Assembly (NCBI GenBank): GCA_025210485.1
Contig: JAOARN010000003.1
Location: 62,001 to 126,000, forward strand
DNA: 64,000 nt
Reading direction: 5' to 3'
Origin: Marinifilaceae bacterium
GTDB taxonomy: Bacteria; Bacteroidota; Bacteroidia; Bacteroidales; Marinifilaceae
Of the stretch, positions 1 to 13,083 are shown piece by piece (within the stretch, counting starts at the first letter, position 1; the number at the start of each line of letters is the position of its first letter). The notes beneath the pieces are model-generated. The model did no database searches. It had not been told where the DNA came from and saw nothing but the letters and a program-made list of their open reading frames with translations. The position numbers and the translations under genes are program-made.

Positions 1-984
1 TATAATATAACCTCTGTATCATTTAATGATTCGTTTAGAAATTGTGAGGCAAATCCAGGGCCATCCTTGACTGCTAAATCGGTTAGCATCGAAAAGCTTA
101 AGCCTGTTGTGAATTGCCCATCAGCATTGATTAGGCGTTCGGCTAGTGGTTTGGCTTGCGATTATACTGTTGCTGGTGCAGAGCTTAATCCTACTTCTGT
201 TACTGATAATTGTAGTTTGGCTTCTGTTACTAATAATATTAATTCAACAAACAGTCTTGCAGGCGAATCATTCTCGATTGGAAATCATACTATTACATGG
301 ACAGCAACAGATGTTTCTGGAAATACATCTTCTTGTTCTTTTACTTTAATTGTAGAGGATAAAGCTGCTCCTTTGATTGTTGGTTGTCCTACATCTCCTA
401 TAGAAGAGGAAAAAACCAACTCTTGTAATTTTGCTATTAAAGATTATACAAAACTGATTACTGTTACAGATAATTGCGGAGGAGCTGTAAATATTGTACA
501 GTCACCTGCTCCGGGAACTTTAGTCACTGTTAACACTAATGTTCAAATTGTAGCTACCGATGGAGCAGGTAATTCGAGTAGCTGTAATTTCGAAGTTCGA
601 TTAGTTGACAAAATAAAACCTATTATATCCGATTTAAGCTCATTGAATGCTGATGAATGTGCTGATAGTGAACTTATTTCTCCACAGGTAAGTATGATTG
701 CAGGATTGAATTTAACAAATTCTATGATTTCTGATAATTGTACTGCTGATGTTAATTTAAGAATACAATATCGAATAAAACTTCCTGATAGTTCTTTTGC
801 TAATAATTGGGGTGTGAAGGCACCTGGTGCTAACTCAGCTTCGGATCCTTCGGCTTATGCATTTCCTCAGGGTAATAGTGAAATTTTATATAGAATTATC
901 GATGAAGCGGGTAATATAAGTAATGTGAAGGTTGTTACGATAAGAGTTCGACCTAAACCCAATCCTGGGGAGATAGAATTTTAA
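1..984 (+). CDS. HYR/Ig-like repeat surface protein, 5' end outside window
   Basis: The frame is open from base 1, so the start and signal peptide lie upstream; 327 residues are visible. They contain at least two hyalin-repeat (HYR) type modules, recognised by recurring Asp-Asn-Cys, an Ala-Thr-Asp-x-Ser/Ala-Gly-Asn core followed by a Ser-Cys-x-Phe strand, and a closing Val-x-Asp-Lys with a Pro-Ile or Pro-Leu start of the next module. HYR folds are Ig-like and typical of extracellular adhesins. The protein ends in VRPKPNPGEIEF, without the ~90-residue T9SS sorting domain seen in the 853-residue protein four genes downstream. The next gene begins 35 bases later on the same strand, so it is probably part of that operon. 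The ligand is unknown. Confidence 0.8.
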   Translation, partial: YNITSVSFNDSFRNCEANPGPSLTAKSVSIEKLKPVVNCPSALIRRSASGLACDYTVAGAELNPTSVTDNCSLASVTNNINSTNSLAGESFSIGNHTITWTATDVSGNTSSCSFTLIVEDKAAPLIVGCPTSPIEEEKTNSCNFAIKDYTKLITVTDNCGGAVNIVQSPAPGTLVTVNTNVQIVATDGAGNSSSCNFEVRLVDKIKPIISDLSSLNADECADSELISPQVSMIAGLNLTNSMISDNCTADVNLRIQYRIKLPDSSFANNWGVKAPGANSASDPSAYAFPQGNSEILYRIIDEAGNISNVKVVTIRVRPKPNPGEIEF

Positions 985-1019
985 TTAGTAAAATAAACAA
1001 AAAATTATACTACTTATTT

Positions 1020-1889
1020 ATGAGAACTACATTTAAATATTTTTTAGGACTAGCTGCTTGCCTGCTTATGGCTCAGGTGAGTATGGCTCAGTGGGTTGAT
1101 GCAACTACTGCTCCTCTTGGTGATGGAGACAACCCATATGTTGGAAATGAATATACTTATACTGTTACTACGGGTACTCCTGCCGGTACAGCAAAAGTAT
1201 GGGCTATTTTTACAGACAAAGGAACTACTGCTGCTTTAGCTGCAGATTATACTATGACTGGAATTAATACAGGTTCGGCAAAAATTACATGGAAAAAAGC
1301 AGGTACTTATTACCTTCGTTATGCTGAAACACTAAATGGATGTACTACTTATCGTGGTCAGAAGATTGTTGTTTCTGAAAATAATTTCTATATCACTCTT
1401 GCTGCTGATGGAGATAAGTGTAATGTGGAAGCTGGTAATGTTTTAGATTGGACAACTTATGAAACTAAGGCTGATAATAAAACTGATTTAGTGTATACAG
1501 TTACTAGACATACTGAGGCTGGATTCACCATAGACTCATGGAAGTTTGAAGCTACAATTGATTTACCAACAGGTATTAGTATTGATGCTGGTGAACTTAC
1601 AACAAATGATGCTGGTTGTACTGTTACCAATACTACTGGTTCGACATATACTTTTACTGGAATTACAAAAACGGACCTTGTGATAACTGTTAAAGCAAAA
1701 GGAAAAGTTACAGATGGAGGAAATCTTAAACTTACTTTATCTAAAGGTATTGCGATGAAAGGTGCTCTTGAGCTTAAAGATAACGAATTAAGACCTAGTA
1801 ATGTAGAAGAAACAAATGCTGCCCTTCGTGACAGAATTCAGACAATGGTTCTTAAACCACTTCCTGCAGCTAGTAATATTCAATTTTAA
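1020..1889 (+). CDS. Secreted PKD/Ig-like modular protein (289 aa)
   Basis: No named family recognised. The first 23 residues form a Sec signal peptide (hydrophobic core, then SMA before Gln24). Residues ~40-120 form a PKD-like module with the pattern Tyr-x-Val, Trp-x-Ile, Lys-Ile-Thr-Trp-x-x-Ala-Gly-x-Tyr-Tyr-Leu and Asn-Gly-Cys. The rest looks like an Ig/DUF11-like beta domain rich in Thr, Gly and Asp. It ends in LKPLPAASNIQF, similar to the ends of the neighbouring proteins. There is no T9SS sorting domain and no lipobox. It sits 13 bases before the next gene in an apparent operon that ends with PorP/SprF genes, so a cell-surface structural role is inferred. Confidence 0.8.
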   Translation: MRTTFKYFLGLAACLLMAQVSMAQWVDATTAPLGDGDNPYVGNEYTYTVTTGTPAGTAKVWAIFTDKGTTAALAADYTMTGINTGSAKITWKKAGTYYLRYAETLNGCTTYRGQKIVVSENNFYITLAADGDKCNVEAGNVLDWTTYETKADNKTDLVYTVTRHTEAGFTIDSWKFEATIDLPTGISIDAGELTTNDAGCTVTNTTGSTYTFTGITKTDLVITVKAKGKVTDGGNLKLTLSKGIAMKGALELKDNELRPSNVEETNAALRDRIQTMVLKPLPAASNIQF

Positions 1890-1902
1890 TAATATTTGAA
1901 TT

Positions 1903-2754
1903 ATGAATTATATGAAAAATATTTTTGTGGTACTAATAATGTTTGTTGCAATTAGTGCCACGGCTCAAACAGGTAAAACTCCATTTTTGAATTCAACCCA
2001 CAATTATAATGTCAACAATATTGCTGGTAGTACTTATTTATGGGAAGTTTTTCTTGGAGATGAAGGCACCGCAGCTACTGCAGGAACTCATTATTCTATT
2101 AAAAATGAAGGAACCAACTCATCTGACATCACTTGGTTAAAAGCCAATAATCCAGCTTCTGCTGATACTAAAGAACAGAAGTATTTTGTTGTGATTACCG
2201 AAACAGGTGCAAATGGCTGTATAACTAAAAGAGCTATTGATGTAGTTGTTGAAGCTAACGAATTTGATGTTACTATTGAAGATCCAGGAACAGCTTTATG
2301 TTCTAGTGCAGATGGTAAAATTATTAATACTGCTAAAGATAACTTAGGTAATTCTACTCGTTCTTTCAAGGTGAAAATGACTACAGATGGAGCATATCCA
2401 ACTGCTGGTTTCAAACCAGAATGGGAGTTTGAATATGAATTGACATCTACTATTGGTGACTTTACAAAATTACCAGTATGCGTAGGTGGTACAATTTCAG
2501 CTCCGTCGCATACAAGTATTGTCGCTGGTATTAAAAAATTAACAGGTAAGATAACAGTTCCTGCTGGTACTGCAGAAGTTACTATTACTACTGAGTCTGC
2601 TAATATTTGGGGAACAGCTGACGAAACAATAGTATTGAAACTTAAGGCTGTTAAAGAGAATAAATACTCTACTCCTGAAGCTGATAATACTAATAATACT
2701 GAAGATATCATTATTAAACCAATTCCAACAACAACGGATATTGCAACAGATTAA
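1903..2754 (+). CDS. Secreted PKD/Ig-like modular protein (283 aa)
   Basis: Same architecture as the preceding gene. The signal peptide ends in ATA before Gln22. A PKD-like module follows (Tyr-x-Trp-x-Val, Ser-Asp-Ile-Thr-Trp, Tyr-Phe-Val-Val-Ile-Thr-Glu, Asn-Gly-Cys), then an Ig-like beta domain. It ends in IKPIPTTTDIATD. There is no sorting domain. A second in-frame ATG lies at 1912; the upstream ATG was kept because it gives a normal n-region. An 83-base gap with a strong hairpin separates it from the next gene. The function is unknown; position and composition suggest a surface-fibre or adhesin subunit. Confidence 0.8.
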   Translation: MNYMKNIFVVLIMFVAISATAQTGKTPFLNSTHNYNVNNIAGSTYLWEVFLGDEGTAATAGTHYSIKNEGTNSSDITWLKANNPASADTKEQKYFVVITETGANGCITKRAIDVVVEANEFDVTIEDPGTALCSSADGKIINTAKDNLGNSTRSFKVKMTTDGAYPTAGFKPEWEFEYELTSTIGDFTKLPVCVGGTISAPSHTSIVAGIKKLTGKITVPAGTAEVTITTESANIWGTADETIVLKLKAVKENKYSTPEADNTNNTEDIIIKPIPTTTDIATD

Positions 2755-2785
2755 TTCAGCTTAATAAAATAAAAAAAATAAAACT

Positions 2786-2821
2786 CAATCTACTTCTTGA
2801 ATATGCTTAAGAAGTAGATTG
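2786..2821 (+). promoter_or_regulatory. Perfect 13-bp hairpin inside the secreted-protein operon
   Basis: Bases 2786-2798 (CAATCTACTTCTT) pair perfectly with 2809-2821, with a 10-base loop. No T-tract follows on the + strand, so it is not a standard intrinsic terminator. It lies in the only sizeable gap (83 bases) between otherwise tightly packed genes, 16 bases before the next ATG. It could be an mRNA-stabilising or processing hairpin, or could limit translation of the next gene. Confidence 0.6.
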
Positions 2822-2837
2822 GTAAAAAATATTAGAT

Positions 2838-3842
2838 ATGAAAAGATTTTTTTATTCAATATTTGCTTTAGTAGCTTTTGTTAGTTTTTCTAATATTGCT
2901 GCAGCACAAACTAATTCAGGTACAACTCCTGCAATTGGTACATCCCATAGCTATTGGGTTAATTCTAGTGATGGAACTACAGGTAAATTTGACACTGAAG
3001 GCCATAAAGGAAATGATTTCCAATGGTATATTACAAAATCAGATCTAGTAGGTGCTGTTCCTGCAGGTGACTTAAGTATAACATCTCCAGTAAAAACTTA
3101 TGTAAATGGTGCTACAGCTGTTACTGATATGTTTAAGGTTGATATTGATTGGCATGCTCCTTCTGTAAAAGGGGTTTACTACTTACATATTATTGAAACT
3201 GCTACTAATGGCTGTACCAATCATAAGGTAGAAAGAATTCAACCATTTAGTGATTTCAAATTACTTGTAAACAATATCAATAATCTTACAACTGAGGCTG
3301 ATGAAGCTGATAATATGACTGTTTGTGCAAATGATGTAACTCCTGTTTTAATTGATACTAAAGGAACGGCAGGCGATTTATCAGATGATGAAATCAGATA
3401 TAATTACGGTGTTAAGAAATTATATTATAAGATTACAGCACAGAATTTTGATAAAACACAAGCAAACTTCAAGTTCGATTATAATATTGATATTACTGAT
3501 GGTCCTACTACATTCTCAGCTTCATGGGGTACAATTGCAGGCGGAACATATACTAAAGTTGCTGATTTGACATTTACTGATGGAACTGATGCAACAGTAA
3601 ACATCGATGGTATTGCTGCAGCTGTAAATAAAACATTCTATGTGGTGGTAACACTTGATTACAACCAGGGAGATGCTACATTCAATGCTCCATTTGAAGG
3701 AACTGCTGTTCACGATTGTGTGTTCACATTAAAAGGCGCTAGTCAGGCTGCTGGAAATGCTATAGCTGCTCTACCTGCTGATGCTGACAGAAAACAAATT
3801 GTTAATCCAAGACCTAGTACTTCAGTTATTAGTTCAAACTAA
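2838..3842 (+). CDS. Secreted PKD/Ig-like modular protein (334 aa)
   Basis: Third complete member of the local series. The signal peptide is about 23 residues, ending AAA before Gln24. The N-terminal PKD-like module carries Phe-Gln-Trp-Tyr-Ile, Val-Asp-Ile-Asp-Trp, Gly-Val-Tyr-Tyr-Leu-His-Ile-Ile-Glu-Thr and Asn-Gly-Cys. A second beta-rich domain contains three spaced Asp clusters. It ends in NPRPSTSVISSN, again the Pro-x-Pro tail seen in its neighbours. There is no T9SS sorting domain. It is 24 bases upstream of the next gene. Role inferred as a cell-surface structural or adhesive subunit. Confidence 0.8.
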   Translation: MKRFFYSIFALVAFVSFSNIAAAQTNSGTTPAIGTSHSYWVNSSDGTTGKFDTEGHKGNDFQWYITKSDLVGAVPAGDLSITSPVKTYVNGATAVTDMFKVDIDWHAPSVKGVYYLHIIETATNGCTNHKVERIQPFSDFKLLVNNINNLTTEADEADNMTVCANDVTPVLIDTKGTAGDLSDDEIRYNYGVKKLYYKITAQNFDKTQANFKFDYNIDITDGPTTFSASWGTIAGGTYTKVADLTFTDGTDATVNIDGIAAAVNKTFYVVVTLDYNQGDATFNAPFEGTAVHDCVFTLKGASQAAGNAIAALPADADRKQIVNPRPSTSVISSN

Positions 3843-3866
3843 TTGTTAACAAAAAAAAATAAGTAA

Positions 3867-5228
3867 TTGAGAAATCAAATACATAAAACTATTCTAATCA
3901 TGACATTCATGATACTGGCCGTAGCACATAAAGCTACGGCCCAGGGTAGTTTTGTCGTGTTTGAAGAGGCTACTAGAATATATTCCGTCGATAATCATCC
4001 TGGGAATACATACGAATGGGCTGTATATAATCTTGCTGATATAAATAATGAAATCACAGATCTTAATATTGTTGAGATACTTGATGGAAAGACAGACCAT
4101 CAGGCTGAAATAAAGTGGAAAAAAGCAGGAGATTATCTATTAATTATTAGAGAGCAAGGTATTTGCCAAAATCTTAAGGCAACAAAGATTAAAGTGGTTG
4201 ATAATGCTAGCATAGCGCTTACTGTTTTTAATTCAATAGATTGTTATGACGGTTTAAACCCATACTCTACACCAGTGGAACTAAAATTAGGAGCTGCTGA
4301 TATTGATGCGGCTATGTACCCTATAACAGTAGAATACTCTATAGCAGGTAATGGCGCAGGAAATCCAAGCAATGGTACAGCAACAATTGTAAATAAAGGA
4401 GAGTTACTTCAAATAAGTGAATTAATTGAAGATGCTGATCTAACAAAGGAATTTACAATTAGGCTTACTGCTGCTAAAAATAAATATGGCGGTAGAATTA
4501 ATATCACTGCAGGTAAAGAGGAACATATAAGAAAAGTATTTGAACAGCCTGATATCAATGATATTGTCGCTGATTATATGACTGCTAGAATGCAAACAGT
4601 CACAGTAACTGCTTCTTGTAATTATGAAATAAGTGGTGATGCAGGACTCAAATATACTTGGGCTGTAAAGGGCCATCCAGAAATCGATTTAACAGGATAT
4701 ACTAATACTCTTGCCCATATTGATTGGAGATTGCCAGGAACATATACCCTACAGGTTTATGGTACAGCTCCAGCAGTATTAAATAATTGTAATACCGAAC
4801 TTAAAGAAATTACTGTACAAGTATTACCAATGGGAACATTGAAATTTAAAGATGATACGGATCATGTAATTACTTGTTCTCGATTAGCTGCAAACAAGAA
4901 TGGTGGGCCATTAGATAATAGTGAATTTATTATTGATATAAATGGAGGTGCTGGACCATATACTGTTTACTATACTATTAGAAGACCAGATGGAACTTTA
5001 TACACTGTGGCTCCTGTAAAAACAAAAAATTTAACTAAAAATGGACTAATATCTATTTTAAATAAATTTGAAAATACTACAGCAACAATGGAATCTTTCG
5101 AGGTGGAGCTGACAAAAGCGGTTACTCGTGATGGAGTTGAGCTTCGACTAGGAACAAAAGACGAAAGAACTAGATATATCAGAGTTAGAAATAAACCAAG
5201 CTTAGGCGGTGTAATAACTGCAAATTAA
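3867..5228 (+). CDS. Secreted protein with two PKD/Ig-like module pairs (453 aa)
   Basis: It starts with TTG at 3867. This start is preferred over the in-frame ATG at 3900 because it supplies the charged n-region (MRNQIHK) that a signal peptide needs; cleavage is expected after ATA at residue 25. The protein holds the local module twice. Residues ~30-115 (Ala-Glu-Ile-Lys-Trp-x-x-Ala-Gly-Asp-Tyr-Leu) are followed by an Ig-like domain. A linker with Gln-Pro-Asp-Ile-Asn-Asp-Ile then leads to a second PKD-like module (His-Ile-Asp-Trp, Gly-Thr-Tyr-Thr-Leu, Asn-Asn-Cys) and a second Ig-like domain. It ends in RNKPSLGGVITAN. It shows that the shorter neighbours correspond to single repeating units. 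No sorting domain. Confidence 0.8.
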   Translation: MRNQIHKTILIMTFMILAVAHKATAQGSFVVFEEATRIYSVDNHPGNTYEWAVYNLADINNEITDLNIVEILDGKTDHQAEIKWKKAGDYLLIIREQGICQNLKATKIKVVDNASIALTVFNSIDCYDGLNPYSTPVELKLGAADIDAAMYPITVEYSIAGNGAGNPSNGTATIVNKGELLQISELIEDADLTKEFTIRLTAAKNKYGGRINITAGKEEHIRKVFEQPDINDIVADYMTARMQTVTVTASCNYEISGDAGLKYTWAVKGHPEIDLTGYTNTLAHIDWRLPGTYTLQVYGTAPAVLNNCNTELKEITVQVLPMGTLKFKDDTDHVITCSRLAANKNGGPLDNSEFIIDINGGAGPYTVYYTIRRPDGTLYTVAPVKTKNLTKNGLISILNKFENTTATMESFEVELTKAVTRDGVELRLGTKDERTRYIRVRNKPSLGGVITAN

Positions 5229-5237
5229 TAATCGAAT

Positions 5238-7799
5238 ATGCTAAGAAAATTAATATATATAATTTACTTGATTGCAGGGCTAATAATCCTTTCTGGGAAT
5301 ATTGTATCTGCTCAGCATATTGATATTATGGTTGGAGAATCTAGAGAATTCGAAATTCCTGATAATCCTAATTTTACATTTCATTGGGAATTGGAAGATC
5401 CAGCAGGAACGATTATTAAATTGCCTTCAAATACTAATAAAACGGCTAAGCGAATATTCAATACTCCTGGTAATCATATCGTAAGAGTGCAGGCTGAGGA
5501 TAGAATTACGGCTTGTTTGTCCGAAAAACTTGAAATAACTGTTAATGTTATTGATGCAGCTCCTACGGCTATTTGGAAAAATACGCCAACTATAGTTTGT
5601 GCTGCCAATGACAATCTTAGCTCTGGTAGATTTGAGCTTGAGGTTGAATATAATGGTCCTCGACCTTGGACTTTTAAATATAAACTTGATGGTTCGGTTG
5701 CTAAAACGCCTCATGGCGCTGAGCAAATAATGGGCAATACATTCAAATTTGAAACTTTCTACAGAAATAATACTAAAGCGCCTAAGGATATTAAACTAGA
5801 ATTAGTGGAAGCTAAAACTCTTACTGGTATTCCTGTAACAGTGGATGCCGCTGAGCAGATAAAAACAATTACAGTTAGGGCATTACCTAATCCTCAGTTC
5901 TTAAGATATACTAATGATGCAATGATTAATTCAATACAGCATTTTACTGTATTGGTTGGAAAATTGAGAAGATATACTGTGGATGTTCCTTACGGTGCTA
6001 CAAAACTTAATGAGAAGATTACTAATTACGATGCAGTCAATGACTTACTTGAATTTGATATCCAATGGGGCGATATTGAAGGGGATTATGAAATAGGTGT
6101 AAGGGATGAAAATGCTGAAGGTTGTGAATCTGATAATGTTAAGGCATATGTCGAATTATTTAAGGAAAAACTTGTTTATTTAGGTCCTGATAGAACATTA
6201 TGTGTTGGATCGAGCTTAACCCTAGTTCCTGAACATCCTGATCCTAGCAGAGAATATGAGTATACTTGGTTTGATAGTAATAATGACAAAGTTAAGCAAA
6301 TAAATGCAGGCGGAGTATATTGGATTAAGGCTGTTGATAAGAAATCAGGAGCATATGATAGTGACTATGTTGTTATAACTGAAATTCCTTTGCCTGATGT
6401 TAATCTAGGTGCAGATATATTATTGACTGTGGGTGAAACTAGAGAACTTGATGCAGGTAATTTCACAGGTGCTTCTTATTTGTGGTCAACTGGTGAAACT
6501 ACCAGATATATTGACGTAAACAAAGCCGATACCTATAATGTTACTGTTACAAGTGCTGAGGGATGTATTGGTAAAGATGAAATCAATGTTACAAGCATGG
6601 AAGATGTATTTGTGATAAATCTTGGATCTGATATTACTAGATGTGCTGGCGAGACAGTAACTCTTGATCCTCGTCCAAATTACCCTCAGGCATATACTTA
6701 CTCATGGTCAAATGGTGCGACTAGCCCAACTATTGATGTAACTACAGAAGGAGAATATACCGTATCGGTTATAGATCCAAAAGGAAACAAAAAAGAGGAT
6801 AAAATATATGTCACTTTTAATGAATCACCTATAGTAGACCTAGGCGATGATTTATCATTATTTGCTGGCGAAACAATTGATCTTGATGCTGGTAATGCCA
6901 AACTTGGAGAAGTATATGAGTGGAGCACAGGAGACACTGATCAATCAATAAAAGTAAATATTGCAGGTTTATATTCTGTTAAAGTAACCAACAAGTATAA
7001 TTGTTCAAACACTGATGATGTTAATATTATCTTCAGAAATGGAGAACGCTTTACAGTCGACGTTGGTGCTGATAAGGCTATCTGTGAGGGCGAAAGTGTT
7101 AGAATAAATGCTATACTTGATGTAGATTTAGTTGGAGAAATATATAAATGGAAACATGTTTCAAGGAGCAAAGCTGTAAATAATCTTAAGGATGTAAGTA
7201 ATACTATTACTATTGACCAAACAGGTCAGTATTGCGTTACCGTAACCGACCAATATGGAAATACAGAAGAAGACTGTATGGACCTAATTGTTTCGCCACG
7301 ACCAATAGTTGATTTAGGTGGTACAATCAAAGCTGCTATTGGAACAAATGTTACTTTAGATGCTAAGAATCCAGGAGCTTTCTATACATGGAATGATGAT
7401 GCAAATTCTGTTAGTCAGAAAATAGAAGTAGACAAATCTGGCGAATATATGGTTACTGTTACTAATGAAGAGGGTTGTTCAACCACAGATTTAGTATCTG
7501 TTGAAATAAGTGGAAATATCAAATATTATGTGGAATTCCCTTCAGCATTTAGACCAACAGGAGATAAACAAAATATAAAAACTTTTGGTCCTCGCCACAA
7601 TGGTGTTAAGACCTACAAATTGCTTATCTATGATAGAACAGGTCATTTGATGTTTAAGTCAACTGATGTGAACGATAGATGGGACGGACGCTATAATGGT
7701 AAGCTCCAAGTTATGGATGCTTATGTGTACTTTGTTAAAGTAGAATTCCTAAACGGAACTAAGAAAGAAAAACACGGAAATGTGAGTTTGATATATTAA
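5238..7799 (+). CDS. Ig-like repeat protein with T9SS type B (gliding-associated) C-terminal domain
   Basis: 853 residues, starting 9 bases after the previous gene. The signal peptide ends VSA before Gln26. The N-terminal third resembles the upstream proteins: a PKD-like module, then an Ig-like domain, then a Val-Arg-Ala-Leu-Pro-Asn-Pro linker. Six repeats of ~75 residues follow, beginning near residues 313, 388, 459, 533, 607 and 691. Their theme is Val-x-Leu-Gly-x-Asp, Gly-Glu-Thr, Tyr-x-Trp-Ser-x-Gly, Gly-x-Tyr-x-Val-x-Val-Thr and a Cys. Residues ~763-853 match the gliding-motility-associated (CHU_C, type B) sorting domain: Phe-Pro-Ser-Ala-Phe-x-Pro-x-Gly-Asp, Tyr-Asp-Arg-x-Gly, Trp-Asp-Gly and a final Gly-Asn-Val-Ser-Leu-Ile. 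In this phylum such proteins are exported by T9SS with a PorP/SprF partner, here encoded directly downstream. It is the likely surface-attached member of the cluster. Confidence 0.92.
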   Translation: MLRKLIYIIYLIAGLIILSGNIVSAQHIDIMVGESREFEIPDNPNFTFHWELEDPAGTIIKLPSNTNKTAKRIFNTPGNHIVRVQAEDRITACLSEKLEITVNVIDAAPTAIWKNTPTIVCAANDNLSSGRFELEVEYNGPRPWTFKYKLDGSVAKTPHGAEQIMGNTFKFETFYRNNTKAPKDIKLELVEAKTLTGIPVTVDAAEQIKTITVRALPNPQFLRYTNDAMINSIQHFTVLVGKLRRYTVDVPYGATKLNEKITNYDAVNDLLEFDIQWGDIEGDYEIGVRDENAEGCESDNVKAYVELFKEKLVYLGPDRTLCVGSSLTLVPEHPDPSREYEYTWFDSNNDKVKQINAGGVYWIKAVDKKSGAYDSDYVVITEIPLPDVNLGADILLTVGETRELDAGNFTGASYLWSTGETTRYIDVNKADTYNVTVTSAEGCIGKDEINVTSMEDVFVINLGSDITRCAGETVTLDPRPNYPQAYTYSWSNGATSPTIDVTTEGEYTVSVIDPKGNKKEDKIYVTFNESPIVDLGDDLSLFAGETIDLDAGNAKLGEVYEWSTGDTDQSIKVNIAGLYSVKVTNKYNCSNTDDVNIIFRNGERFTVDVGADKAICEGESVRINAILDVDLVGEIYKWKHVSRSKAVNNLKDVSNTITIDQTGQYCVTVTDQYGNTEEDCMDLIVSPRPIVDLGGTIKAAIGTNVTLDAKNPGAFYTWNDDANSVSQKIEVDKSGEYMVTVTNEEGCSTTDLVSVEISGNIKYYVEFPSAFRPTGDKQNIKTFGPRHNGVKTYKLLIYDRTGHLMFKSTDVNDRWDGRYNGKLQVMDAYVYFVKVEFLNGTKKEKHGNVSLIY

Positions 7800-7824
7800 G
7801 AATAAATTTTATTGCAAATTTAGT

Positions 7825-8886
7825 ATGAGAAAGAGTATATTGTTTACGGTTCTAGTATTGGTGCTTTGTATTAGCAATGCACTGGGCCAGCGTGTACACT
7901 CTTCTCAATTCTATTCAAATCCAATGTTGTTAAACCCTGCCCTAACAGGTAATTCCGATTATCAATTAAGAGCAGGTATTAACTACCGTAATCAATGGAA
8001 TAGTGTTACAGTTCCATTTGTTTCGCAAAATGCATTTGTAGATGGAAAGTTGAATTCAACCTTCTTGGTTGAAAAATCGTGGATAGGGATTGGAGGAATG
8101 CTGTTCTCTGATAAAGCAGGTAGTGGAGGATTAAAAACTAACCAACTTACTTTATCGAGTTCATTTAATAAAAGTTTGAACCGACGTAATTCTATGTTAC
8201 TTAGTTTTGGACTTACTGCAGAAATTACAAATAAAGCTATTGATTATCATAAACTTGTTTTTGACGATCAATGGAATGAAAACTTTTTTGACCCAGGGCA
8301 AACAACTCAGGAAGATATTAATTCACGATCATTATTTTATGTCGATTTATCTTTTGGTACAATGTTTTCATATTATCAGGACAAAAGACATAGGTATTAT
8401 ATGGGTGTGGCTGTTGGACATATCAACCAACCTAATGAATCATTCTATAATGTGACTAATAATCTTAAAACTAGATTTATAGCACATGCAGGAGCTGATA
8501 TTAAATTTTCTCAGCGAATGTCAATTACTCCTGACTTTATACATATTACAGAGAAAGGAGCCAGCGAATGGGTTCTAGGTAGTAATATGCAGCTCAGAGT
8601 TGGTCGTAATGGCGTTGTTATGCATTATGGTATGAGATATCGTTTTACTCAAGATATTATTCCTAATTTTGGTGTTGAGAAGGATAAGTATAAATTTATG
8701 ATCAGTTATGATGTAAATGTATCCCAACTATCTCGTGCATCATCATACCGTGGTGGTTTCGAATTAAGTTTTATATTCCAAAATAAGTATTCTGACAGAA
8801 GAAAACTTAGACATGTAAGAAGAAACAGAAATGTCAAAAAACTTGGAAATAAAGCCCTTTCTTGTCCAAAATTCACTAATAAATAA
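7825..8886 (+). CDS. PorP/SprF family type IX secretion protein (first copy)
   Basis: 353 residues with a signal peptide (ALG before Gln22) and the PorP/SprF opening: Phe-Tyr-Ser-Asn-Pro-Met-Leu-Leu-Asn-Pro-Ala-Leu-Thr-Gly, then Tyr-Arg-Asn-Gln-Trp-Asn. Alternating amphipathic strands throughout fit an outer-membrane beta-barrel. Family members such as SprF are needed for secretion or surface attachment of a cognate type B-sorted protein and are usually encoded next to it. Here the gene follows 25 bases after the 853-residue sorting-domain protein, so the pair is probably functional. The Arg/Lys-rich C-terminus (~residues 318-353) probably faces the periplasm. Confidence 0.93.
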   Translation: MRKSILFTVLVLVLCISNALGQRVHSSQFYSNPMLLNPALTGNSDYQLRAGINYRNQWNSVTVPFVSQNAFVDGKLNSTFLVEKSWIGIGGMLFSDKAGSGGLKTNQLTLSSSFNKSLNRRNSMLLSFGLTAEITNKAIDYHKLVFDDQWNENFFDPGQTTQEDINSRSLFYVDLSFGTMFSYYQDKRHRYYMGVAVGHINQPNESFYNVTNNLKTRFIAHAGADIKFSQRMSITPDFIHITEKGASEWVLGSNMQLRVGRNGVVMHYGMRYRFTQDIIPNFGVEKDKYKFMISYDVNVSQLSRASSYRGGFELSFIFQNKYSDRRKLRHVRRNRNVKKLGNKALSCPKFTNK

Positions 8887-9028
8887 AAAATTTAGGGTAG
8901 TTTTTAATTTCAATGGATATACTATATATGCATGGTATTCATATTTAAACCATAAGCATCCATATATTTAGATAGTTGATAATATATTATGGAAATTATT
9001 GTTATTTAAGTAGTAAAAAAATTATACT

Positions 9029-9069
9029 ATATTACAAATTCCCAAATCAATTATGTAAATTTGTAATAT
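9029..9069. promoter_or_regulatory. 12-bp inverted repeat upstream of second porP/sprF gene
   Basis: Bases 9029-9040 (ATATTACAAATT) and 9058-9069 are perfect inverted copies with a 17-base spacer. The right arm overlaps TAAATTTG at 9056-9063, which fits the Bacteroidota -7 consensus TAnnTTTG; no convincing -33 element was seen. The gap of 226 bases before the next gene and this arrangement suggest a separate, possibly repressor-controlled promoter. Confidence 0.45.
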
Positions 9070-9112
9070 TATAGCCTTGGCTAAATTTAATATCCAAATC
9101 ATCTGAATTTAA

Positions 9113-10171
9113 ATGAGACTATTCTTCAATAAGATTCTAATTAGTTGTATACTATTATTATTATGTTGTTGTTTAGCTACCTACAATAATACTGTAAGTG
9201 CTCAACAAACGGATATTTCTCAAATAAAATCTATACCTATACTACTTAATCCTGCACAAACAGGAGGTTCTATGAATTTGATTAGAGCTGCAGCTCTATA
9301 TAAAAATCAATGGAATACAGTATCTACTCCATTTTCAACACAAATCGCTTATGCCGATATGAAAAGAGGATTGAAGAACAGACAAAGTTCAAATTTAGGA
9401 ATAGGTGCGCTTTTAATGTCTGAGAAAGAAGGTGTACTAAATACTACATGTTTTGGTTTAGCATCCTCATTATACACTTCCTTAGGCAATAGAAATCATA
9501 CTTTCGTTCATATTGGAGCTAGGCTTGATTTATATAATAAAGCTGTAAAAAAAAATGATCTAATCTTTGGAGATCAATGGGATGGCGCCATCTTTAATAA
9601 AGACAAACAGAGTCATGAAGATTTAAGTACAGAATCCATTTTTTATATGGATGTATCACTTGGTGGGCTTTTTTCTTTTCATTACAATCAAACAACTTAT
9701 GAAATTGGTATTTCTGCCAGTAAACTTAATAGTCCAAATGTTAGTTTTTTTGATGCTGACAATAAGATGAAACCTGAGTTTCTGATACATGCAAATGCTA
9801 AAATAAATAAGGGGCTTAGGCAAATAATACCATCTGTTATTATTTTTAATGATTCAGGCTCAAATCTTATAGCTGCTGGTGTAGACGTCTTTAAATCTAT
9901 TAAAGCTTATGGGTTAATGTATGGTTTATGGTATAAATCAAACAAATCTCTTGTTCCAATGATTGGCTTCTCTTATAATAGTCGATATTCATTTAAACTA
10001 AGTTATGATTATAGTCTTGAATCTAATCCCGAATTAGTAAAACGAAATAGTCTAGAAGTATCTATAAGTTATGAGTTCCGTCCACGAACTGGTAATATTA
10101 TTAGCACAAGAAAGAAAAAGAGAAAATCAAATAAAGATAAAGCACTTGATTGTCCTAAAAGTAATTATTAA
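9113..10171 (+). CDS. PorP/SprF family type IX secretion protein (second copy)
   Basis: 352 residues, with a long signal peptide ending VSA before Gln31. The PorP/SprF signature is present but diverged: Ile-Pro-Ile-Leu-Leu-Asn-Pro-Ala-Gln-Thr-Gly and Tyr-Lys-Asn-Gln-Trp-Asn. The central Asp-Gln-Trp and the Lys/Arg-rich C-terminus are shared with the first copy, so the two are paralogs of equal length, though clearly different in sequence. It is separated from the first copy by 226 bases that contain an inverted repeat and a promoter-like element, so it may be expressed independently. It may serve a different substrate or form a second outer-membrane component. Confidence 0.9.
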   Translation: MRLFFNKILISCILLLLCCCLATYNNTVSAQQTDISQIKSIPILLNPAQTGGSMNLIRAAALYKNQWNTVSTPFSTQIAYADMKRGLKNRQSSNLGIGALLMSEKEGVLNTTCFGLASSLYTSLGNRNHTFVHIGARLDLYNKAVKKNDLIFGDQWDGAIFNKDKQSHEDLSTESIFYMDVSLGGLFSFHYNQTTYEIGISASKLNSPNVSFFDADNKMKPEFLIHANAKINKGLRQIIPSVIIFNDSGSNLIAAGVDVFKSIKAYGLMYGLWYKSNKSLVPMIGFSYNSRYSFKLSYDYSLESNPELVKRNSLEVSISYEFRPRTGNIISTRKKKRKSNKDKALDCPKSNY

Positions 10172-10587: not shown

Positions 10588-11469
10588 ATGAGAAGGATAT
10601 TTCGATTAGTTATTATAAGTTTTATGTTTTTAGCATGTATATCTTGTAATAATTCTAAAAAAACTAAAAAAAAATCAGGTAAAAAGATAATTTCTGTAAG
10701 TATTATTCCTCAAAAATACTTTATAGAACAAATAGCTGGTGATGATTTTCAAATAAATGTGCTAGTTCCACCAAGTGAAAGTCCAGCGACCTACGAGCCA
10801 CTTCCAAATCAAATGAAAGATATGTTGAATTCAAGTGCATATTTTTTAATCGGTCATATTCCATTCGAACATGCTTGGATAAAAAATATACTATCGAATA
10901 ATAAAGAAATTAAAGTTTTTGATAATTCAGAAGGGGTTAAGTTAATTAGAGGGGAAGCTATTCAGCACGGAGATCACATGCATCCAGGAGGAATAGACCC
11001 TCATATATGGGTGTCGCCTAAAACATGCCGCAAATTAGCTCATAATATATATAAAGCCTTGATTAAGTTAAACCCATCAGGTCTTAATAGATATAATGAA
11101 AATTTACAGAAATTTATTACCAAAATTGATAATCTTAGTACACAGCTTAGTGCAGTGAGTTTAAGAAAAAATATCAGTTTTATGATATATCATCCAGCAT
11201 TATCATACCTAGCACGAGATTATAATTTTGAACAAATACCTATAGAAGCTGATGGAAAAGAACCTTCGGCTAAATATGTAAAGGATATTTGCGATATAGC
11301 CAAGGATAGAAATATTCAATATATATTTATCCAAAAACAGTTTAATCGCGAAAGTGCAATGGCAATAGCCAAGGAAATTGGCGCTGAAATAAAGCAAATA
11401 AATCCACTAGGCGAAAATTGGGAACAGGAAATAAAAAAAATAATTACTTATCTTAAAGATTTAAAATAA
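10588..11469 (+). CDS. Metal ABC transporter substrate-binding lipoprotein (ZnuA/TroA type)
   Basis: 293 residues of the cluster A-I (ZnuA/TroA) family, which binds Zn or Mn outside the inner membrane and delivers it to an ABC permease. The hydrophobic start ends in a Cys-rich LACISC, so it is probably a lipoprotein. Metal-related features are Gly-His90, a short His-rich loop (His127, 130, 132), Asp-Pro-His139-Ile-Trp, Tyr-His-Pro-Ala and Ile-Glu-Ala-Asp-Gly-Lys-Glu-Pro-Ser. The usual first ligand motif Pro-His-x-Tyr-Glu-Pro reads Pro-Ala-Thr-Tyr-Glu-Pro, so that histidine is absent. The His-rich loop favours zinc. ATPase and permease genes follow directly. Confidence 0.9.
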   Translation: MRRIFRLVIISFMFLACISCNNSKKTKKKSGKKIISVSIIPQKYFIEQIAGDDFQINVLVPPSESPATYEPLPNQMKDMLNSSAYFLIGHIPFEHAWIKNILSNNKEIKVFDNSEGVKLIRGEAIQHGDHMHPGGIDPHIWVSPKTCRKLAHNIYKALIKLNPSGLNRYNENLQKFITKIDNLSTQLSAVSLRKNISFMIYHPALSYLARDYNFEQIPIEADGKEPSAKYVKDICDIAKDRNIQYIFIQKQFNRESAMAIAKEIGAEIKQINPLGENWEQEIKKIITYLKDLK

Positions 11470-11482
11470 TATTAATCAATAA

Positions 11483-12238
11483 TTGAAAAGTAGTAAATTG
11501 GAAAAATCTACATTAATAGAATTAACTGATATCTGTGCTGGGTATAAAGAAAATATTGTTCTCGAAAATGTTAATTTAAGTATTAAAGAGAATGATTTTC
11601 TTGGTATTATTGGGCCTAATGGTGGAGGAAAAACTACTCTTCTTAAGATTATTTTAGGCATTATAAAACCATTTTCGGGGCAAATAAACTATTCCAATAA
11701 ATCTAAAATTATAGGATATCTACCTCAGGTAAATATGATTGATAAGAATTTTCCTATCAATGTTAATCAGGTGGTCTTATCTGGTTTAATGTCAAAGAAA
11801 AAATTATGGAGTAGATATTCAAAAGATGATAAGGAAAAGGCTTTGGAACTACTTGCAGATATGGGAATATACGAATTAAAAGATAAACCCATAGGGCAGC
11901 TTTCGGGTGGACAATTGCAAAGAGTTTATTTATGTCGATCTCTTATATCAAAGCCAAAACTTCTTATCCTAGATGAGCCTGAAACATATGTTGATAGTAA
12001 TTTTGAAAATGAATTGTATGATAAGTTAGATGCTCTGAATAAAGAGATGGCAATAGTAGTTGTTTCGCACGATATTGGAACTATTTGTAGCCATGTAAAA
12101 ACTGTCGCATGTGTAAACAAGGCATTATGTTACCATAATTCAAATGAAATAACCGAACAAATGCTAAAGGTTTACAATTGTCCTTTGGAAATTATCACAC
12201 ACGGAAAAATACCGCATAGAGTACTTAAAAATCATTAA
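11483..12238 (+). CDS. Metal ABC transporter ATP-binding protein (ZnuC type)
   Basis: A complete ABC ATPase of about 250 residues. It has Walker A GPNGGGKT (residues 44-51), a Q-loop (Leu-Pro-Gln), signature LSGGQ, Walker B LLILDEPE and the H-loop His in VVVSHD. It powers metal uptake with the neighbouring binding protein and permease. No ATG fits the N-terminus: the frame begins with TTG at 11483 or TTG at 11498, before Ile-Glu-Leu-Thr. It starts 13 bases after the binding-protein gene and ends 2 bases before the permease, so the three are one operon. Zinc versus manganese cannot be settled from the ATPase. Confidence 0.93.
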   Translation: MKSSKLEKSTLIELTDICAGYKENIVLENVNLSIKENDFLGIIGPNGGGKTTLLKIILGIIKPFSGQINYSNKSKIIGYLPQVNMIDKNFPINVNQVVLSGLMSKKKLWSRYSKDDKEKALELLADMGIYELKDKPIGQLSGGQLQRVYLCRSLISKPKLLILDEPETYVDSNFENELYDKLDALNKEMAIVVVSHDIGTICSHVKTVACVNKALCYHNSNEITEQMLKVYNCPLEIITHGKIPHRVLKNH

Positions 12239-12240
12239 CT

Positions 12241-13083
12241 ATGACAAGTTTTATTTCAGATATATTTCAGTATAATTTCTTAATGAATGCTATTATTACA
12301 GCCATATTAGCAAGTATTTGTTGCGGAATTATTGGTTCGTATATAATAATCAGGAAAATGGTATTCATAAGTGGAGGTATCACACATGCTTCTTTTGGAG
12401 GTATCGGTATAGCATGGTTTCTGGGAATAAATCCACTTATTGGAGCCTCTGTGTTTGCTATACTCTCTTCTGTTGTAGTGGAAACATTCTCAAAACGATC
12501 AAAAATAAATAATGATGCCATTATCGGTATGATGTGGGCACTTGGAATGGCAATAGGAATAATTTTTATATATCTGACTCCTGGTTATACACCAAACTTA
12601 ATGAGTTATCTCTTTGGTAATATTCTATCCGTAACATTAAATGATAATATATTGTTATTATTGTTTTTAATAATACTTGCAATTGTATTTGTGTTGTTTA
12701 ATAAACCGATTTTATACCTAGCATTTGATAAAAACTATGCAGAAACTCAACAAAAGAAATGGTTTATAATTGACTATATTCTAATGATAATGGTATCGAT
12801 ATGTATTGTTATGAATATTAGAGTTATAGGAATAGTTTTACTGATATCTTTCCTAACTATACCCCAAATCACAGCAAGTGTTATAACAAGTAAATTTAAT
12901 TTACTGATTCTTTATTCATGTATCATCGGAATTATAGGTTCCTTTTTAGGATTATTCGTTTCGTACAAATATAATATACCCTCAGGAGCAACTATAATTT
13001 TCTGTTTTATACTTATATTTTTAATAGTTAAATTAATAAGTATAATAATTAGTAGCATTACAAAAAAGAGGCAAATGGTTTAG
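12241..13083 (+). CDS. Metal ABC transporter permease (ZnuB type)
   Basis: 280 residues with about eight hydrophobic helices. It has the ABC-3 family core: Gly-Ser-Tyr-Ile-Ile-Ile-Arg-Lys-Met-Val-Phe-Ile-Ser-Gly-Gly-Ile-Thr-His-Ala-Ser-Phe-Gly-Gly near residues 30-55, and a Val-Gly-Ile-Val-Leu-like helix near residue 200. This family forms the inner-membrane channel for Zn or Mn import with the ATPase encoded just upstream (2-base gap). The C-terminus ends in a Lys/Arg-rich cytoplasmic tail. Confidence 0.93.
   Translation: MTSFISDIFQYNFLMNAIITAILASICCGIIGSYIIIRKMVFISGGITHASFGGIGIAWFLGINPLIGASVFAILSSVVVETFSKRSKINNDAIIGMMWALGMAIGIIFIYLTPGYTPNLMSYLFGNILSVTLNDNILLLLFLIILAIVFVLFNKPILYLAFDKNYAETQQKKWFIIDYILMIMVSICIVMNIRVIGIVLLISFLTIPQITASVITSKFNLLILYSCIIGIIGSFLGLFVSYKYNIPSGATIIFCFILIFLIVKLISIIISSITKKRQMV

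Follow-up and report, generated by a model that had tools for sequence, protein, structure and literature searches.

A conserved split version of a type IX secretion system type B adhesin in Marinifilaceae, with a candidate tail-to-head mode of subunit assembly

A stretch of 64,000 nucleotides from a Marinifilaceae bacterium (positions 62001-126000 of contig JAOARN010000003.1, hereafter C119) opens with a cluster of eight genes, designated g1 to g6, p7 and p8; the whole stretch is referred to as the window, contig coordinates are prefixed C119 and the remaining coordinates are those of the window. Comparative sequence analysis indicates that g1-g6 are a conserved split version of a type B adhesin of the type IX secretion system (T9SS). 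The type B T9SS adhesins known so far, for example SprB, are single giant proteins. In the present case, one surface adhesin fibre would be divided into separately Sec-exported polypeptides, in which the dangling C-terminal tail of subunit n would provide the first beta strand that is missing from the head of subunit n+1. Such strand complementation would join the subunits head to tail, in the gene order g1-g2-g3-g4-g5-g6, as a non-covalent chain which is exported and anchored by g6 and its PorP/SprF carrier. We lean towards this reading as a whole; the docking of each tail into the next head is moderately supported, and export of the chain together with g6 less firmly so.

Gene organisation, shared modules and conservation

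The eight genes lie on the same strand at the places given by the sequence-only reading of this DNA, and the short spacing that it described was confirmed (gaps of 35, 13, 83, 24, 9, 25 and 226 bases; Table 1). The complete g1 encodes 526 amino acids (aa) (C119:61404-62984), its start being located 597 bases upstream of the window, and Pfam/NCBIfam profile searching identified HYR in its product (E 2.8e-19). A Sec signal peptide is predicted on each of g1-g6. The claim that a type B domain is present in g6 alone held up, as CHU_C (Pfam) scores 31.4 bits in g6 against a cut-off of 27, with TIGR04131 marginally below its own cut-off (34.7 versus 35 bits), and a search of g1-g5 with Pfam and NCBIfam for type A and type B T9SS signals, including hidden ones, returned none. 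No Pfam or NCBIfam family reaches its curated cut-off in g2-g5. The products of p7, which begins 25 bases past the end of g6, and p8 are clear PorP/SprF proteins (184 bits, 183.9 with TIGR03519, and 149 bits, respectively, against a cut-off of 90.6), and the genome also encodes SprA, GldK and a total of nine PorP/SprF genes.

A head hidden Markov model (HMM), built from relatives only with the window sequences excluded, matches the mature N-terminus of all six proteins: g1 at residues 28-132 (E 3.7e-10), g2 at 35-134, g3 at 20-137, g4 at 24-146, g5 twice (30-129 and 241-341) and g6 weakly at 26-123 (14.7 bits, with 22-35 bits for g6 orthologues). The sequence-only reading had assigned this PKD-like head to genes 2-6, which is correct for all five but incomplete, since gene 1 carries it too. 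Across 32 diverse short subunits the Gln at the mature start and two Cys residues are invariant, while two Trp residues and one Pro are nearly so.

The link which that reading missed is a C-terminal tail common to g1-g5, the probable docking site of which is the next subunit. The products of g1-g4 end in the tails listed in Table 1 and that of g5 in RNKPSLGGVITAN, while g6 ends in its type B domain. The tail pattern P-x4-10-[IVLMF]-x1-4-stop is present in 123 of 123 chain subunits as opposed to 12% of 311 other signal-peptide-like open reading frames (ORFs) of the same loci, a contrast that describes the motif rather than testing it, the pattern having been picked post hoc after inspection of the tails. 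The final eight residues contain 0.23 Lys/Arg in the tails versus 1.49 in the background. A tail-type motif also sits as an inter-domain linker within g5 and g6, and in related loci one subunit body can bear different tails depending on the gene that follows.

A search of 23 same-family genomes detected full-length g6 orthologues in nine (39-42% identity, E<1e-169), a conservation by which chance is excluded, and p7 orthologues (51-56% identity) follow g6 in related loci. The neighbourhood survey that the sequence-only reading called for returned the array beside g6 and PorP/SprF orthologues in 21 Marinifilaceae loci, chosen through PorP/SprF, wherever the contig reaches far enough; the relatives with the conserved PorP/SprF gene belong to Labilibaculum, Marinifilum and Ancylomarina. 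Complete loci comprise four to eight short head-and-tail subunits, g6 and p7, usually with a larger HYR-like protein upstream and, in several species, additional large tail-bearing proteins further upstream. The subunit row is a mosaic in which relatives of g2, g3 and g4 (for g4, L057:4080-5015 and L059:2177-3127) occur in some species and are substituted in others. In the draft genome of Marinifilum fragile the reading frame of the g6 orthologue (L060:7359-9728) is broken at both the start and the C-terminus, reflecting a frameshift or an assembly error. The genomes with the array carry a second g6 paralogue, whose alignment starts at g6 residue 103-120; the three paralogues examined (alignment starts at residue 117-119) are headless in their first 150 residues and have neither subunits nor PorP/SprF adjoining them, and as these headless paralogues stand alone, the head would appear to be retained on the anchor where a docking partner exists.

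The closing pair of PorP/SprF genes noted previously is only partly a shared feature, for a p8 counterpart was not seen in the related loci and the second gene is specific to this genome. A candidate substrate for p8 is an orphan type B protein encoded elsewhere in this genome, for example that at C59:37049-39229.

The short-subunit profile has matches in 121 of the 344 genomes of the order, many of them inside large proteins. Short proteins found alone were regarded by the sequence-only reading as evidence against a multi-subunit system; in this genome, all six profile matches lie within the array, and the short proteins do not occur on their own. In approximately eight other Bacteroidales families, convincing tail-bearing sets 5' of a type B gene were recognised in our reading of the fetched loci (e.g. 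L125, L127, L129, L135, L139, L142, L143, L148 and L150), the tails often resembling NPLPTTSPIWHN-stop. Very large proteins with no detected type B signal and with the tail motif at their end are also encoded 5' of a short subunit or anchor (L126:3-9539, L129, L133 and L136), and in other families these would make up the outer portion of fibres of this kind. Beside PorP/SprF relatives outside Marinifilaceae no head-and-tail subunits were recognised, and the type B gene, where found, is single and usually large. The other type B loci of this genome contain no convincing arrays; its three type B giants of conventional form (3200-3885 aa) are each encoded with a PorP/SprF gene nearby. Among 20 type B anchors hand-picked across Bacteroidales, two convincing split sets were present (L148 and L150); the association of a head-bearing anchor with upstream tails in this sample is biased by the choice of loci and is not used as proof.

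Table 1. Features of the cluster, in window coordinates
Feature	Position	Strand	Description
g1 (3' part in window)	1..984	+	Signal peptide, PKD-like head, two HYR matches, tail RPKPNPGEIEF*
g2	1020..1889	+	289 aa; signal peptide (..SMAQ), head, C-terminal Ig-like domain, tail KPLPAASNIQF*
g3	1903..2754	+	283 aa; signal peptide (..ATAQ), head, Ig-like domain, tail KPIPTTTDIATD*
Hairpin, g3-g4 spacer (2755-2837)	~2783..2825	+	13-bp stem, CAATCTACTTCTT-GAATATGCTT-AAGAAGTAGATTG
g4	2838..3842	+	334 aa; signal peptide (..AAAQ), head, Ig-like domain, tail NPRPSTSVISSN*
g5	3867..5228	+	453 aa from TTG; head, Ig, internal tail EQPDINDIVAD, second head, Ig, tail NKPSLGGVITAN*
g6 (anchor)	5238..7799	+	853 aa; signal peptide, head (~26-123), Ig/PKD repeats, type B (CHU_C) domain 766-849, tail-less
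p7	7825..8886	+	PorP/SprF family carrier, conserved g6 partner; C-tail KALSCPKF, one conserved Cys (C347)
p8	9113..10171	+	Second PorP/SprF, 33% identical to p7; C-tail KALDCPK

The start of g5 is uncertain, an ATG at approximately 3900 being the alternative to the TTG at which the gene was called, and Bacteroidota-type promoter patterns were sought 5' of g1 and none was found. In relatives, long spacers at a comparable position of the array contain strong hairpins whose sequence differs from that in the g3-g4 spacer (L043-L048, L050, L052, L056, L057, L060 and L061; e.g. CCTTCCCGG..CCGGGAAGG), and processing or attenuation at the spacer hairpin may determine the stoichiometry of the subunits. 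Immediately 3' of the cluster (10588-13083), ORFs were read as a periplasmic metal-binding protein, an ABC ATPase and a membrane permease, thereby resembling a zinc/manganese uptake operon with no relation to the adhesin.

Tail and head as putative docking partners

Gene g5 corresponds to two separate genes in relatives. In an alignment that reads through the intervening stop, the end of the first relative's gene (KKPKISIINLN-stop) matches the internal g5 segment EQPDINDIVAD, after which g5 runs straight into the head of the second protein, the stop, spacer and signal peptide having gone. By this alignment g5 is a natural fusion, in which tail n continues in line into head n+1.

Structure prediction of g5 using AlphaFold2 with 23 relatives (mean predicted local distance difference test score, pLDDT, of 87.8; predicted template modelling score, pTM, of 0.59) placed the internal tail in a strand (residues 205-210) followed by head strands 217-221 and 225-232, while the first head is without a comparable preceding strand and the free C-terminal tail (417-428) is coil. 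In a second AlphaFold2 model the two stops between g5 and g6 are read through, which places the signal peptide and head of g6 after the g5 tail. Here the tail acquires a short strand at 227-229 (block pLDDT 73), and the linker that covalently joins Ig1 to PKD2 within g6 is likewise a strand (453-456; block pLDDT 85). Both models fit the notion of a tail that turns to strand only with a head available. Foldseek returned tandem Ig-like proteins, the nearest bacterial ones being the Aureispira GhpA fragments 9flw, 9flp, 9flu, 9fls and 9fly (E approximately 1e-9 to 1e-14, identity 11-15%).

To assess covariation between tails and heads, the identity of tails, compared pair by pair, was regressed on that of the adjoining segments over 83 internal junctions. 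The standardised coefficients were 0.26 for the subunit's own pre-tail body, 0.27 for its own head and 0.24 for the next mature head (jackknife standard error 0.08), with -0.01 for the next signal peptide, -0.04 for the next Ig body and 0.13 for the next tail. On the DNA the tail is separated from the following head by the signal peptide, which is therefore the segment that mere linkage should have favoured.

A number of observations weigh against tail-to-head docking. The models, read as strand assignments and scores, do not show with which strand the tail pairs, pTM values are just 0.55-0.59 and, in the read-through model, pLDDT is approximately 42 for the signal-peptide linker and only 73 for the tail. 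Dissimilar tails precede the same head, the QQNQTVTSGS-type head being found after ..GKPTIIF, ..TIVDIAF and ..MSGITIK, from which it follows that tail-head specificity is loose. Recombination breakpoints could also account for the covariation, and signal peptides give a noisier measure than heads do. Owing to these noisier signal peptides and to the heads that follow dissimilar tails, the covariation lends moderate support to docking. The multi-polypeptide adhesin with gene 6 as its type B-sorted anchor, as put forward by the sequence-only reading, is partly supported: it fits all comparative evidence, and its subunits may reach the surface.

A distal partner for the head of g1 was also sought elsewhere in the genome using, at the DNA level, the tail pattern P-x-G-[ILVMF]-[FY]-x-x-stop, the 20 matches of which, compared to 28 in the reversed control, correspond to chance.

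Export of the chain and alternative explanations

For type B substrates, SprF and other PorP/SprF proteins have been proven to act as dedicated carriers (PMC12635249, PMC12618676); these substrates require their own carrier and remain bound to it (PMC12618676, PMC12635249, PMC9143113). In substrate-bound translocon structures a type A signal domain is located within the SprA pore (PMC10994853). Because the signal is present on g6 alone, piggyback export is inferred, whereby the chain would assemble on g6, in the periplasm or within the translocon, and exit through SprA with g6. In the docked chain the HYR-containing g1 would be the outermost unit. The p7 protein, and perhaps p8 also, would extract g6 and retain it in the outer membrane. 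SprF is linked to GldK through its Cys-x-Cys tail (PMC12635249), and the C-tail cysteine of p7 may similarly be linked to GldK/PorK; a single C-tail Cys (CP[KR]F or similar) ends many PorP/SprF proteins (window 8863-8886 and 10148-10171, L043-L069, L072 and L081) and is possibly the counterpart of the track-linking tail of SprF. Species would diversify the fibre through subunit swaps or fusions. Labilibaculum, in which both L. manganireducens and L. filiforme have the array, is described as gliding and as bearing appendages of 30-40 nm, while Marinifilum and Ancylomarina are described as non-motile (PMC5760507); the array is present in all three alike despite these differing descriptions.

It is also conceivable, though in our estimation unlikely, that g6 alone reaches the surface and that g1-g5 are periplasmic, either forming a scaffold or guarding g6 as a substrate. 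The only signal predicted on g1-g5 is indeed that for Sec, and co-export by the T9SS of subunits lacking a C-terminal signal domain was not found in a search of open-access papers. Tail-bearing proteins of up to 3178 aa upstream in other families would, however, be odd periplasmic parts, the reshuffling of subunits between species is expected for exposed proteins, and HYR, PKD and Ig modules are typical of surface adhesins.

A lower probability still is attached to the subunits being independent surface proteins or g6-interacting partners that merely share an operon, with the tail a leftover interdomain linker from gene fission and without docking: the tail does equal linker sequence, as the splitting of a giant gene would leave, and recombination alone could yield the mosaic variation, but a useless remnant would not persist in all 123 subunits or track the next head, and the anchor retains its head only where subunits occur. 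About equally improbable is that the tail by itself directs export or sorting, as a short, minimal new T9SS signal by which each subunit is secreted and displayed independently, since, although it occupies the extreme C-terminus of every subunit lacking a signal domain (including the large upstream proteins of relatives), where sorting signals sit, the same motif is an inter-domain linker that folds as a strand in g5 and g6, tails vary with the next subunit, and known T9SS signals are whole C-terminal domains of some 80 residues or more (PMC10202324).

If the chain of docked subunits is real, piggyback export would explain the large and small adhesin-like Bacteroidota proteins that lack a signal domain and end in a tail. 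Current T9SS models assume one C-terminal signal per exported protein. A chain held by its tails would mean that one signal exports several polypeptides, and would represent a new means of fibre building and of diversification by gene-module swaps; if shown, C-terminal donor-strand assembly would be novel, as would piggyback export. A simple rule, namely a tail together with a downstream head-bearing type B anchor, would assign many unexplained adhesin-like genes to a secretion route. Only tentatively do we extend this to a general class of T9SS fibres made of Sec-exported subunits with C-terminal donor strands, pre-assembled and exported by means of the type B signal of the last subunit.

Comparison with known systems

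A chaperone-usher pilus was considered and rejected, as no usher or chaperone genes were read among the ORFs in or just beside the cluster and the candidate donor strand is C-terminal, not N-terminal. The Type V pili (FimA/Mfa) of Bacteroidales are likewise fibres of separate subunits, for which a donor-strand mechanism has been proposed (PMC4789730). Their precursors, however, take the Lol lipoprotein route and are trimmed by an arginine-specific protease, whereas those described here are predicted Sec-I precursors whose donor would be an unprocessed C-terminal tail; no fimbrillin Pfam match was obtained in the cluster, and the signal peptides, inspected by eye, end in A-Q with no lipobox Cys, which sets the cluster apart from Type V pili. 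The likeness to GhpA of the Aureispira grappling hook concerns the general tandem Ig-like fold only, GhpA being a single giant chain with fragments numbered to residue 5009.

The type B/PorP-SprF/PorE operons of Flavobacterium johnsoniae and PG1035-PorP-PorE of P. gingivalis share with the present cluster a type B protein anchored via a PorP-like barrel (PMC12618676, PMC9143113). They differ in that no PorE-like gene was recognised beside the array, and no description was found for PorE-type operons of an upstream row of subunits without a signal domain.

The SprB-SprF system of F. johnsoniae (operon sprC-sprD-sprB-sprF) has in common with this cluster an anchor that combines a Sec signal with a type B signal at its C-terminus, a dedicated PorP/SprF gene directly downstream, the T9SS machinery and GldK. 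SprC, which is co-encoded with SprB, also travels on the gliding track (PMC12635249). The C-tail of the SprF carrier contains Cys-x-Cys where p7, p8 and their relatives have one conserved Cys (CPK). Finally, SprB is one giant polypeptide, whereas in the cluster described here the ectodomain is split over g1-g5, each with the common head and tail and none with a C-terminal signal domain, plus g6.

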